From Singulisphaera sp. GP187 (GTDB taxonomy: Bacteria; Planctomycetota; Phycisphaerae; Phycisphaerales; SM1A02), in NCBI GenBank assembly GCA_945868805.1, contig CAMBMO010000008.1:1-64000 (forward strand): a stretch of DNA of 64,000 bases, read 5' to 3'. Below, in pieces: positions 12,648 to 15,997 of this stretch. Positions within the stretch are counted from its first letter, which is position 1. Every line of letters starts with the position of its first letter. The position numbers were made by a program, and so were the translations under genes. Under the pieces are notes generated by a model that was given only the letters and a program-made list of their open reading frames with translations, searched no databases and had not been told where the DNA came from.

Positions 12648-13190
12648 ATGACCGTCCATCAACAATCATTCTTTGGAGCGACAATCGAAATCGAGATGCA
12701 CGACGGCATGCCATTCACTCGCTATCGAGCTGGTTCTCCAAAGCGAAAGTCTCGCCCACCGACCGACTGCGATGTCGTTTCTGTGATGACGTTGATCGAT
12801 GGATGGACCTCTGGCCGCAAGATCAAATGCGCCGAGATCCTGAAGTTTCTGCCGAAGGATCCACCATTCCTCGCGGCATGTTGGCGCGCATCGCTTTCGA
12901 TCCCTGCAGGAGAAACCCGAACATATGGATGGCTCGCGGCCGCCGCTGGACGCCCCACTGCTCACCGTGCCGCGGCGCAGTCGATGGCGAGGAACCCGCT
13001 CGCACCACTCGTTCCGTGCCACCGTGTCTTGGGTGCGAACTGCCTCGGTGGATTCTGCGGAGCGAATGCGTCCACGATGGGCGACTCGCCATCCCACTGG
13101 GCGCTCGCGCTGAAACGAAGACTGATTGAAATCGAATCGAAGCCAGCACCGCGAACTCGCTTCAGTAAATCAAAGAGGAAATCGAAATGA
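12648..13190 (+). CDS. Methylated-DNA--protein-cysteine methyltransferase (Ogt/MGMT family)
   Basis: 180 residues from ATG 12648. The active-site motif PCHRVLG is present, preceded by the DNA-binding part [21 protein letters not shown] and RNPLAPLV. The enzyme removes alkyl groups from O6-alkylguanine by transfer to its own cysteine. The C-terminal segment after GGFCGAN is less conserved than usual: the common K-x-x-L-L-x-x-E is replaced by [12 protein letters not shown]. The end is Lys/Arg-rich. It overlaps the next gene by four bases (ATGA), an odd partner for a sugar-nucleotide enzyme. Confidence 0.85.
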
Positions 13191-15997
13191 ACATCACGAT
13201 GGTTGGAACTGGCTATGTCGGACTCGTCACTGGAGCGTGCTTCGCAGACATGGGAAACCATGTGACATGTCTCGACATCGACGAGACCAAGATCGCGACG
13301 CTCAAACGCGGCGAGAGCCCGATCTACGAGCCAGGACTCTCGGAGATGATTCAGCGCAACGCACACGCGGGTCGACTGGAGTTCACGACCGATCGGTCCG
13401 TCGCCTACCGCGATGCCACGATCATCTTCATTTGCGTTGGAACGCCAAGCCGCGACGATGGAAGCGCGGACTTGCAGTATGTGCTCAAGGTCGCTGATGA
13501 CATCGCAGTCGAACTGGAACGCGGTGGTGCGGCAGCGCCGATCAAGACCGTGGTGGTCAAGAGCACCGTCCCCGTGGGCACGAGTCACACCGTCCGAGAT
13601 GCCATCCGAGCTCGGACAAAGGTCCCATTTCGAATCGCAGACAATCCTGAATTTTTGAAGGAAGGTGATGCGATCATGGACTTCATGAAGCCCGACCGGG
13701 TGGTCTGTGGCGTCGATGATTCCGAGACTGGCGATGTGATGCGGACGCTTTACGACCCATTTGTTCGCCAGGGTAATCCGATTTTTATCCTTGATGTCCG
13801 GAGTGCCGAAATGGTGAAGTACGCCAGCAATGCGATGCTCGCCTGCAAGATTTCGTTCATCAACGAGATTGCGAATCTTTGCGAGCGGTATGGCGCGGAT
13901 ATCGGAGCGGTCCGCGAAGGTATGTGTGCGGACAAGCGAATCGGCAAGCAGTTTCTTTATCCAGGGCTTGGCTACGGCGGAAGTTGCTTGACCGGAAAGC
14001 ACACGGTTCTGGCACGACGCGCAGGGCGAACTTCGCTTGTTCGGCTCGATGAGCTCTTCACGAATTCACTCGACGGTATTCAGGAAACGCCCGATCTTGA
14101 AGTGCTCTCGTGGGCACCCGGAGATTCGGCTCCGCAATTCCGACCCGCCACCGGAATCAGTCGGCGTTGGTACGAGGGTGACGGCGTCGAGATCCGCACG
14201 AAGATGGGTCGGCGTGTCGTCGCGACTTCCGATCACCCGATGGTGCTGCTTGATGTGGCAGGACAACATCGGGTTTTCCCGGCCGGAATGGTCTGCGAAG
14301 GCGATTGGTTGCCCGTCGCTGTGGGATGCGAAAAGCAGGATGAACGCTCGACGGACTCGGCGCCAGCTCCGGCTCTGGTCATGGACATACTCGCCTGCGC
14401 AGTAGCGGCCGAAATCGCCGACGAGCAGATCATCGTCCGACTCGCAGACGCGGGACTTCGTGCGCTCGGGCGACTCGATGCGACCACCGTCGAGCAAGCG
14501 CTCGGGCGACTCGATGCGACCACCGTCGAGCAAGCGATCGCACAACTCGCGCATCCGCGCGGTCGCAATCGTGCATCCGACATTCTGCGAGGCGGAGTCC
14601 TCCGACTCGACGAGGCACGATTGCTGGGCTTGCCGATCGAGGACGCAACGTTCGGAACTGCGCGAAATGGGACGTACCTGCCGCGAGTACTCGAAATGAA
14701 CGAACGCTTCTGGCGAGTCCTCGGGCTGTACCTCGCAGAGGGCCATGTCAGTGCGGATGGACGCCGTCGCAGAATCGCCTGGAGTTTCCACCCAACCGAT
14801 GAACCAGAACTCGTCGAAGAGGTCGCGTCGTTCTGGCAATCGATCGGCGTTCGCTGCGATGTTCGTCGCATGTCAACCACGATGCAGGTCTCGGTCTCGT
14901 CGCGAATCCTTGCGTCGATCATCGAAAGTCTCAAAGCCGGCGGAAACTGTTACACACATCGGATTCCCGATCTCGCGTGGACCGCGACAGAGTCGTGCAA
15001 ACGGGCACTGTTGAGCGGGATGTGGCACGGCGACGGATCGTGGTCGAAAGTCCGCGGAGGACCGAGCATCGTGCTCGAGTACGGCACGGTGAGCGCACTT
15101 CTCGCCGACGGAATCGTTCGGTTGCTCGGAGACATCGGAGTCATCGCTCGTGTCAGGGCTAGGCGCGTCGCAAAGAGCGAGCGGACGACGTATCGGCTGA
15201 CGGTTTCAAGCGCATCCAATATCGAGCGGGTGCCCGAACTGACTTGCGCGAGCGAGAGGGACGAGGCACTCCTCTCGATCGCGAAGCGGTCCAAGCGCAC
15301 TGCTCCAACAGGTTCCCGACAGGTTGGGGAGAGTGCGGCGACAGCGGTGCGGGTGGTGTCGGTCCGCAAGCGACAGATCGTCGGCCCCGTTTTTTCGCTT
15401 GAGGTTCCCGGTGCTCACACATTCGTCACGAACCACGGCCTCGTCGTCCACAACTGTTTTCCGAAAGATACCCAAGCCGTTGTCGCAATGGGAAAGTCCA
15501 TCGGTTTTGACTGTAAGCTCAATGCTGCGGTCCACAACGTGAACCAAGATCAGCGTGCGCACTTTTGGGCGAAAATCCAAAAGGAACTTGGGGACGATTT
15601 GCGTGGTAAATGCCTGGCTTTTTGGGGGGTTGCGTTCAAACCCAAGACCGACGACATCCGAGAAGCACCCAGTCTGGCATTGATGGAGCGGGCCTTGAGC
15701 GCCGGTGCGAAAGTACGCGCTTACGACCCCGTTGCCATGGAGCACCTGGCAACTGAAATGCCGTCGGTCGGGTGCGCGAAAGATCTCTACTCGGTCCTCG
15801 ATGGGGCCGATGCGCTCATTATCTGCACAGAATGGGCTGAATTTCGGGCTCCGGACTTCCAGGAAGTTCGACGACGACTTGCCACGCCAACCATTTTCGA
15901 TGGCCGAAACCTGTATCGATTGAACCAGATGAGCGATGCCGGATTCACCTACGCGTCGGTCGGGCGCCAGACGGTCCGACCGCGACAGTCCAGTTGA
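13187..15997 (+). CDS. ugd: UDP-glucose 6-dehydrogenase precursor containing an intein
   Basis: A 936-residue precursor. The exteins (residues 1-266 and 757-936, 446 in total) make a normal UDP-glucose/GDP-mannose dehydrogenase. The N-terminal NAD fold is MVGTGYVGLVTGACFADMG, with FICVGTPS, KSTVPVGT, and NPEFLKEGDAI. The centre has the SAEMVKYASNAMLA helix, and the C-terminal fold has FWGVAFKPKTDDIREAPS. The enzyme oxidises UDP-glucose to UDP-glucuronate for polysaccharides. The catalytic motif GGSCFPKD is split: GGS is followed by the intein, and CFPKD resumes after it. Splicing would rebuild the active site exactly. No frameshift or internal stop is seen. Confidence 0.95.
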   Translation: MNITMVGTGYVGLVTGACFADMGNHVTCLDIDETKIATLKRGESPIYEPGLSEMIQRNAHAGRLEFTTDRSVAYRDATIIFICVGTPSRDDGSADLQYVLKVADDIAVELERGGAAAPIKTVVVKSTVPVGTSHTVRDAIRARTKVPFRIADNPEFLKEGDAIMDFMKPDRVVCGVDDSETGDVMRTLYDPFVRQGNPIFILDVRSAEMVKYASNAMLACKISFINEIANLCERYGADIGAVREGMCADKRIGKQFLYPGLGYGGSCLTGKHTVLARRAGRTSLVRLDELFTNSLDGIQETPDLEVLSWAPGDSAPQFRPATGISRRWYEGDGVEIRTKMGRRVVATSDHPMVLLDVAGQHRVFPAGMVCEGDWLPVAVGCEKQDERSTDSAPAPALVMDILACAVAAEIADEQIIVRLADAGLRALGRLDATTVEQALGRLDATTVEQAIAQLAHPRGRNRASDILRGGVLRLDEARLLGLPIEDATFGTARNGTYLPRVLEMNERFWRVLGLYLAEGHVSADGRRRRIAWSFHPTDEPELVEEVASFWQSIGVRCDVRRMSTTMQVSVSSRILASIIESLKAGGNCYTHRIPDLAWTATESCKRALLSGMWHGDGSWSKVRGGPSIVLEYGTVSALLADGIVRLLGDIGVIARVRARRVAKSERTTYRLTVSSASNIERVPELTCASERDEALLSIAKRSKRTAPTGSRQVGESAATAVRVVSVRKRQIVGPVFSLEVPGAHTFVTNHGLVVHNCFPKDTQAVVAMGKSIGFDCKLNAAVHNVNQDQRAHFWAKIQKELGDDLRGKCLAFWGVAFKPKTDDIREAPSLALMERALSAGAKVRAYDPVAMEHLATEMPSVGCAKDLYSVLDGADALIICTEWAEFRAPDFQEVRRRLATPTIFDGRNLYRLNQMSDAGFTYASVGRQTVRPRQSS
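13985..15454 (+). mobile_element. Intein with LAGLIDADG homing endonuclease inside ugd
   Basis: 490 residues, precursor positions 267-756. It begins with Cys (CLTGKHTVLARR, block A) and ends with GLVVHN, followed by extein Cys757. Block B is VVATSDHPMVLLD with the T-x-x-H motif at 347-350. Block F is GPVFSLEVPGAHTFVTNHG. Two LAGLIDADG-type helices are visible, LGLYLAEGHV (512-521) and LLSGMWHGDG (608-617), each with an acidic residue near its end, so a two-motif monomeric endonuclease is probably encoded and perhaps active. All residues for class 1 splicing (Cys1, TxxH, penultimate His, terminal Asn, Cys+1) are present. Confidence 0.95.
14462..14533 (+). repeat. Perfect 36-bp tandem duplication inside the intein
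   Basis: Two identical 36-base units (14462..14497 and 14498..14533) encode ALGRLDATTVEQ twice in frame, followed by a partial third AIAQL. It lies between the splicing block B and the first endonuclease motif, where length changes are tolerated. Perfect identity indicates recent origin. Confidence 0.95.

Follow-up and report, generated by a model that had tools for sequence, protein, structure and literature searches.

The closest described relatives of the element treated here are inteins of UDP-glucose 6-dehydrogenase (UGDH, gene ugd). In the accessible part of PMC4071816 they form the 'udp' allele, recorded from 7 Halobacteria, from 6 other Euryarchaeota including Methanocaldococcus jannaschii and a Thermococcus, and from 2 bacteria, Dictyoglomus and Fervidibacteria. 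The archaeal precedent in Methanocaldococcus, to which the original prediction on this DNA had pointed, is therefore real. A literature search that reached few subscription journals returned only this source for an intein in UGDH; the available text of PMC3322345 covers phage inteins and a phage UGDH gene and describes no intein in that gene, and that of PMC7090010 names no dehydrogenase. Here we describe a full-length intein in the ugd gene of a planctomycete, on contig CAMBMO010000008.1 of assembly GCA_945868805.1 (positions 1 to 64,000, the whole stretch analysed, hereafter the window). With a probability of about 0.92 we read it, from sequence comparison and structure prediction, as a bifunctional class 1 intein of the 'udp' allele that would act as an autocatalytically splicing, selfish homing element rather than as a dedicated switch. 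The element is best read as probably mobile, intact in the window species, its relatives in sister species having decayed to mini-inteins or being absent. This reading draws on family profiles, invariant residues, the HINT and endonuclease folds, both acidic endonuclease residues, the tally of alleles in the genus, synteny and selection on the mini-inteins. UGDH inteins as such are on record from archaea; what is new is the occurrence of intact, shortened and absent forms side by side in one bacterial genus.

The intein and its host gene

The ugd gene is a single open frame of 936 codons on the forward strand (13187-15997) that encodes UGDH interrupted by the intein. The length resolves into 446 extein and 490 intein residues, the exteins comprising residues 1-266 and 757-936 and the insert residues 267-756. 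The junctions read GGS/CLTGKH...GLVVHN/CFPKD (slashes mark the splice points). The lengths, coordinates (13985-15454) and flanking motifs that had been predicted proved exact when the open reading frame was read again. In a Pfam search with the whole protein, the NAD-binding, central and UDP-binding domains of UDPG/MGDP dehydrogenases flank the insert; these three domains and a GGxC...D active site identify the host as a UGDH. Its N-extein is 90-91% identical to those of the five nearest empty alleles.

The insert was compared with other inteins in two alignments, one of 35 rows from archaea and bacteria that include the mini-inteins of the genus (A1), the other of 46 rows of full-length inteins (A2). 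Residues C1, T81, H84, P85, H489 and N490 are invariant in both. With Cys1, a T-x-x-H motif in block B, a C-terminal His-Asn pair and Cys at +1, the insert has the residues of a class 1 intein. The full set of splicing blocks A, B, F and G that had been claimed is present, with key residues invariant across the aligned archaeal and bacterial inteins. Many inteins carry Asp at the block F position occupied here by Ser471. On the insert alone, LAGLIDADG_3 (PF14528) scored 59.6 bits against a cut-off of 22.5, in two stretches. This profile, the predicted helices and the acidic residues E252 and D350 confirm the two LAGLIDADG helices seen earlier. The NCBIfam model intein_Cterm (TIGR01443) also passes, at 23.4 against a cut-off of 15.6. 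Finally, the AlphaFold2 model of the 490-residue intein (predicted local distance difference test, pLDDT, 90.8; predicted template modelling score, pTM, 0.91) and its matches to solved inteins display a HINT fold. The best of these is the TliVMA intein (7qsu; Z 38.5, 2.3 Å over 339 residues), followed by PI-PkoII (2cw7; Z 37.6, 4.5 Å over 414 residues), and both span model residues 1-490.

According to the accessible text of PMC4794789, Gly257, Gly258, Cys260 and Asp264 of S. pyogenes UGDH are among the residues invariant in 229 sequences, Cys260 being the nucleophile and Asp264 the general base. In this active site the intein leaves the Gly-Gly on its N-terminal side and the Cys (+1) and Asp (+5) on its C-terminal side. 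An empty orthologue of the same genus (L091) aligns through GGSCFPKD with the solved UGDHs 3gg2 and 2y0e. Together with the empty relatives, this alignment bears out the placement of the intein exactly before the catalytic cysteine. A placement special to this organism finds no support: the available part of PMC7765530 describes conserved functional sites, active sites among them, as the usual places of intein insertion. The site would be favoured because the Gly-Gly, Cys and Asp around the codon are invariant in the enzyme family, so that the DNA target varies little, and because inexact loss of the intein would destroy the enzyme. The best explanation, judged from the sequences, is that the intein targets one of the most conserved sites of the gene.

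The assembly, which is 95.8% complete, yielded a single further family member, which reads GGHCIPIDP, and no second GGSC-type UGDH. The GGHC paralogue is probably no substitute for UGDH, because GGHC is given in the accessible part of PMC4794789 as the UDP-N-acetylmannosamine dehydrogenase form. In the lack of another GGSC-type enzyme, UGDH activity should therefore depend on splicing, and the strict dependence put forward in the original prediction is a fair inference. It is scarcely credible that the intein is inactive, leaving the precursor unspliced and the organism without a UGDH of this type, or that UGDH carries the insert as a stable domain. All splicing residues are intact, the enzyme of close relatives lacks the segment, the insert splits the active-site Gly-Gly from Cys and Asp, and an organism so affected would have no GGSC-type enzyme to fall back on in the assembly.

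For a splicing-competent intein of this kind, Cys1 would form a thioester, Cys+1, which is UGDH's own catalytic thiol, would take over the N-extein, and Asn490 would cyclise with the help of His489, yielding an active 446-residue UGDH and a free 490-residue intein. These steps are the established chemistry of such inteins, applied here by inference. The LAGLIDADG domain of the free intein would cut intein-free ugd near the GGS/CFPKD codons, and the intein would be copied into the cut gene by break repair. Since the nucleophile of the enzyme is also a nucleophile of splicing, enzyme activity would read out splicing directly.

Table 1. Coordinates of the intein, its parts and the flanking exteins in the window
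Feature	Coordinates	Strand	Residues or sequence	Basis
N-extein	13187..13984	+	UGDH residues 1-266, ending ...GLGYGGS; covers the NAD-binding domain and the greater part of the central one	Pfam
Full-length intein	13985..15454	+	490 residues; HINT splicing domain and LAGLIDADG homing endonuclease	Profiles, alignments, AlphaFold2, PDB matches
Splicing block A	13985..14023	+	Cys1	C1 invariant in 35/35 rows (A1) and 46/46 rows (A2)
Splicing block B	14210..14251	+	RRVVATSDHPMVLL; Thr81 and His84	T81, H84, P85 invariant in 35/35 rows
In-frame 36-bp tandem duplication	14462..14540	+	ALGRLDATTVEQ twice; copies 97% matching	Tandem Repeats Finder, alignment
First LAGLIDADG helix	14702..14752	+	Residues 240-256; acidic E252	Predicted helix 240-252; E252 at least 90% conserved
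Second LAGLIDADG helix	14990..15043	+	Residues 336-353; acidic D350	Predicted helix 336-350; D350 at least 90% conserved
Splicing block F	15383..15424	+	GPVFSLEVPGAHTF; Ser471	V469, S471 invariant in 46/46 rows
Splicing block G	15431..15454	+	NHGLVVHN; penultimate His489 and Asn490	H489, N490 invariant in alignments; TIGR01443
C-extein	15455..15997	+	Cys+1 (catalytic thiol, equivalent of Cys260), FPKD (Asp +5, equivalent of the general base Asp264), stop codon	Pfam; residue roles from the accessible part of PMC4794789

Three states of the ugd allele in one genus

Among 19 genomes of the genus, 1 (the window) carries the full-length intein, 4 carry mini-inteins without the endonuclease and 14 are empty. 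Alignment of the intein-free genes confirmed the insertion site, as 14 of the 18 congeners read GGSCFPKD without a gap. A gene for HU lies downstream of ugd in 18/18 of the other loci and a methyltransferase-like gene upstream in 16/18, as in the window; the full, mini and empty alleles are therefore orthologous. The mini-inteins (G003, G006, G009 and G011; L084-L087) measure 189-205 residues. One of them is modelled as a HINT fold in which a stretch predicted to be disordered (119-165) takes the place of the endonuclease. The splicing blocks are kept. Over 6 pairs, the ratio of nonsynonymous to synonymous substitution rates (dN/dS) ranges over 0.09-0.14 for the N-terminal splicing part and 0.06-0.11 for the C-terminal one; for the residual linker it is 0.37-1.30 in 4 of the 6 pairs (undefined in 2). 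All of these are rough values because dS often exceeds 1. These sequence comparisons show the splicing parts to be under strong purifying selection, which lends indirect support to excision and ligation by such inteins. The empty alleles (14/19 genomes) are potential homing targets. The genus series illustrates the homing cycle described in the accessible part of PMC1654191. With intact, endonuclease-less and intein-free alleles at one syntenic locus, the genus offers a natural series for tests of that cycle.

The original prediction had also proposed that splicing could serve as a post-translational switch, for instance a redox-sensitive one. On such a reading, oxidation of Cys1 or Cys+1, perhaps as a disulfide with another cysteine, would pause UGDH maturation. 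Both nucleophiles are indeed thiols, and the accessible part of PMC6195587 provides a precedent in mycobacterial DnaBi1, whose catalytic Cys becomes linked to a non-conserved Cys by a disulfide bond on exposure to H2O2. Moreover, the splicing domain has a cysteine at position 104 (Cys104) in the window intein, in 4/4 genus mini-inteins and in 1/30 other aligned inteins, from an Anaeromyxobacter (6/35 rows), and the mini-inteins have been retained under purifying selection. However, this retention is explained by the need to splice, and the element is missing from 14/18 congeners. A conserved partner cysteine was looked for in the intein family alignments and none was found: C1 (46/46) is the only conserved one, and extein positions -1 to -3 (GGS) hold no Cys. 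The missing conservation leaves room for a switch, because the DnaBi1 partner is itself non-conserved. Nothing specific was found in favour of the redox proposal, which we regard as improbable. The preferred reading remains that of a selfish homing element.

In the splicing-domain tree the window intein and the four mini-inteins form one clade (support 100/98). In the extein tree the mini-intein alleles are monophyletic and the window is placed among the empty ones, with long-branch warnings for the outgroup rows. A single planctomycete origin was rejected when the 7 Planctomycetota rows of A1 were constrained to one clade (approximately unbiased test, p-AU 1e-5), as expected of horizontal movement. 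A clade of the window, the four mini-inteins and L017 was not rejected (p 0.316). Base composition gave no useful signal of foreign origin, with a G+C content of 0.620 in the intein against 0.565 and 0.563 in the exteins and 0.584 in the window; at third codon positions it is 0.671 against 0.665 and 0.611. The first 25 codons after the intein (15455-15529) stand out by their divergence, with 61-72% nucleotide identity to the 12 congeners compared (of 18); the 25 codons preceding it have 73-87%. The best match to the former among the fetched loci is an empty congener (76%). A short co-converted tract is possible, though the stretch is too short to interpret.

Several points weigh against our reading. 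On the insert alone, Intein_splicing (PF14890) scored 33.3 bits, just under its cut-off of 35.8, and intein_Nterm (TIGR01445) 24.4, just under 24.5. The mini-intein clade sits on a long branch of the splicing-domain tree, the full-length-intein tree leaves the window without a firm position inside the bacterial clade, and the extein tree fits both repeated loss of an old intein and recent re-invasion. No phage or plasmid carrier of the intein was found by tblastn at E 1e-5 in either collection, the full-length form is known in the genus from one metagenome-assembled genome (MAG) only, and the dN/dS values are rough. The 36-bp duplication, which is absent from every other aligned intein (L006 is masked at that place), could mark early decay. 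This last point bears on the possibility that the intein still splices and no longer homes, its endonuclease inactive and the element heading toward the mini form. The duplication lies before the endonuclease domain and overlaps a low-confidence segment of the model (160-173), and four sister species already have mini-inteins. On the other hand, the duplication falls in a poorly conserved linker, the frame is open, both acidic residues are in place and the endonuclease fold is predicted with confidence. We consider a non-homing intein unlikely and retain the reading of a splicing and probably mobile one.

A PF14890 search for other inteins in the genome recovered solely the ugd intein, and since that intein is itself below the cut-off the search has low sensitivity.

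Occurrence of inteins at the same codon

When the entire 936-residue protein was used as the query in a single scan of public genomes of bacteria and archaea, 80 loci were obtained, of which 47 have an insert of more than 300 residues at the exact codon, 5 a mini-intein and 18 none, the remaining 10 not being called. Thus 52/80 fetched loci (52/70 callable), from archaea and bacteria, carry an intein there, a count that is not a frequency because the peptide patterns of the scan contained intein peptides. By record title the carriers include Haloarchaea, Woesearchaeota, Nanoarchaeota, Heimdallarchaeota, Aquificota, Myxococcota, Actinomycetota, Chloroflexi and Planctomycetota. In one Elusimicrobia UGDH (L058, counted among the 47) the intein has only 368 residues, its endonuclease region is shortened and GGF replaces GGS before Cys1; it may be a decay intermediate. 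Of 392 genomes sampled evenly across the phylum, 5 gave a match at E <=1e-15, a threshold that may overlook mini-inteins: the window, the UGDH of G232 (the same intein as L017), the GGHC paralogues of G062 and G204, and one other protein. The last, from another planctomycete genome (L122/L124, G209:C14), is presumably a topoisomerase VI subunit B and carries an intein-like insert.

The inteins in the GGHC-type paralogues of these two other Planctomycetota (L120 and L121) are full-length (478 and 482 residues) and interrupt GGH/CIPID and GGH/CIPLD, homologous to the ugd codon. They are 52% identical to each other and related to the UGDH inteins over their length.

A scan of viral contigs with the whole protein returned only four remote UGDH-like loci: L113:3001-4611, L114:2782-4875, L116:2-1525, and L115, which is alike to L114 at the locus. 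A second viral scan gave two further hits, L130 and L131. In the four contigs the UGDH-like gene, whose C-terminal part is short, is interrupted at the codon of the catalytic Cys, as in ugd. One open reading frame encodes the N-extein and an N-terminal intein half (IntN), and another, starting with its own ATG, encodes a C-terminal half (IntC) and the C-extein. A free-standing open reading frame of 233-235 residues with weak nuclease-like matches lies between the halves in L114 and L116 and is missing in L113. From its sequence the pair looks like a natural split intein that would splice in trans, because of the Cys1 start, the HN/CFPKD end and the position of the break. Against this, curated intein models found no intein region in the two viral halves tested, and the sole PDB match of the IntN half, a bacterial intein-like domain, is weak (E 0.053). 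The arrangement resembles the 'fractured gene' split inteins reported by Dassa (2009).

We tentatively suggest, while leaning against it, that in nucleotide-sugar dehydrogenases the codon for the catalytic thiol serves as a landing site common to paralogues, and to cells and viruses alike. It would accommodate full-length and mini-inteins of UGDH (GGS/C and GGF/C), full-length inteins at GGH/CIPxD and trans-splicing split inteins of viruses, some with a free-standing nuclease between the halves. If so, inteins of quite different architecture have repeatedly met the same active-site constraint, the paralogue and viral cases being the less expected part.

Comparison with described inteins

The window intein shares with PI-PkoII and the TliVMA intein a two-domain HINT and LAGLIDADG fold along its entire predicted model. 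It is, however, only about 20% identical to them, and they sit in other host proteins. The genus mini-inteins occupy the same locus and codon, and their splicing domains group with that of the window intein; unlike it, they have lost the endonuclease and their linker is predicted to be disordered. Nearer in length are the UGDH inteins of Anaeromyxobacter, Archangium and the planctomycete MAG ACE_NR_PLAN1 (L003-L007, L010 and L017), which have 475-480 residues, the same site and the same blocks and match the window intein at 44-50% identity in BLAST. These inteins belong to other phyla or families, and the 36-bp duplication is seen in none of them (L006 being masked at that place).

The 'udp' allele shares the host enzyme. 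The original prediction had asked about a common site with the archaeal intein; all 17/17 callable Haloarchaea-labelled loci have a full-length intein of 467-475 residues at GGS/CFPKD. The window intein differs from the haloarchaeal ones in sequence (31-36% identity), in grouping with Myxococcota and Actinomycetota in a bacterial clade apart from them, and in its planctomycete host. Membership of the described 'udp' allele is the best explanation, as judged by the host enzyme and the codon of the haloarchaeal loci rather than by the published codon, and the window intein would add a bacterial branch to that allele.

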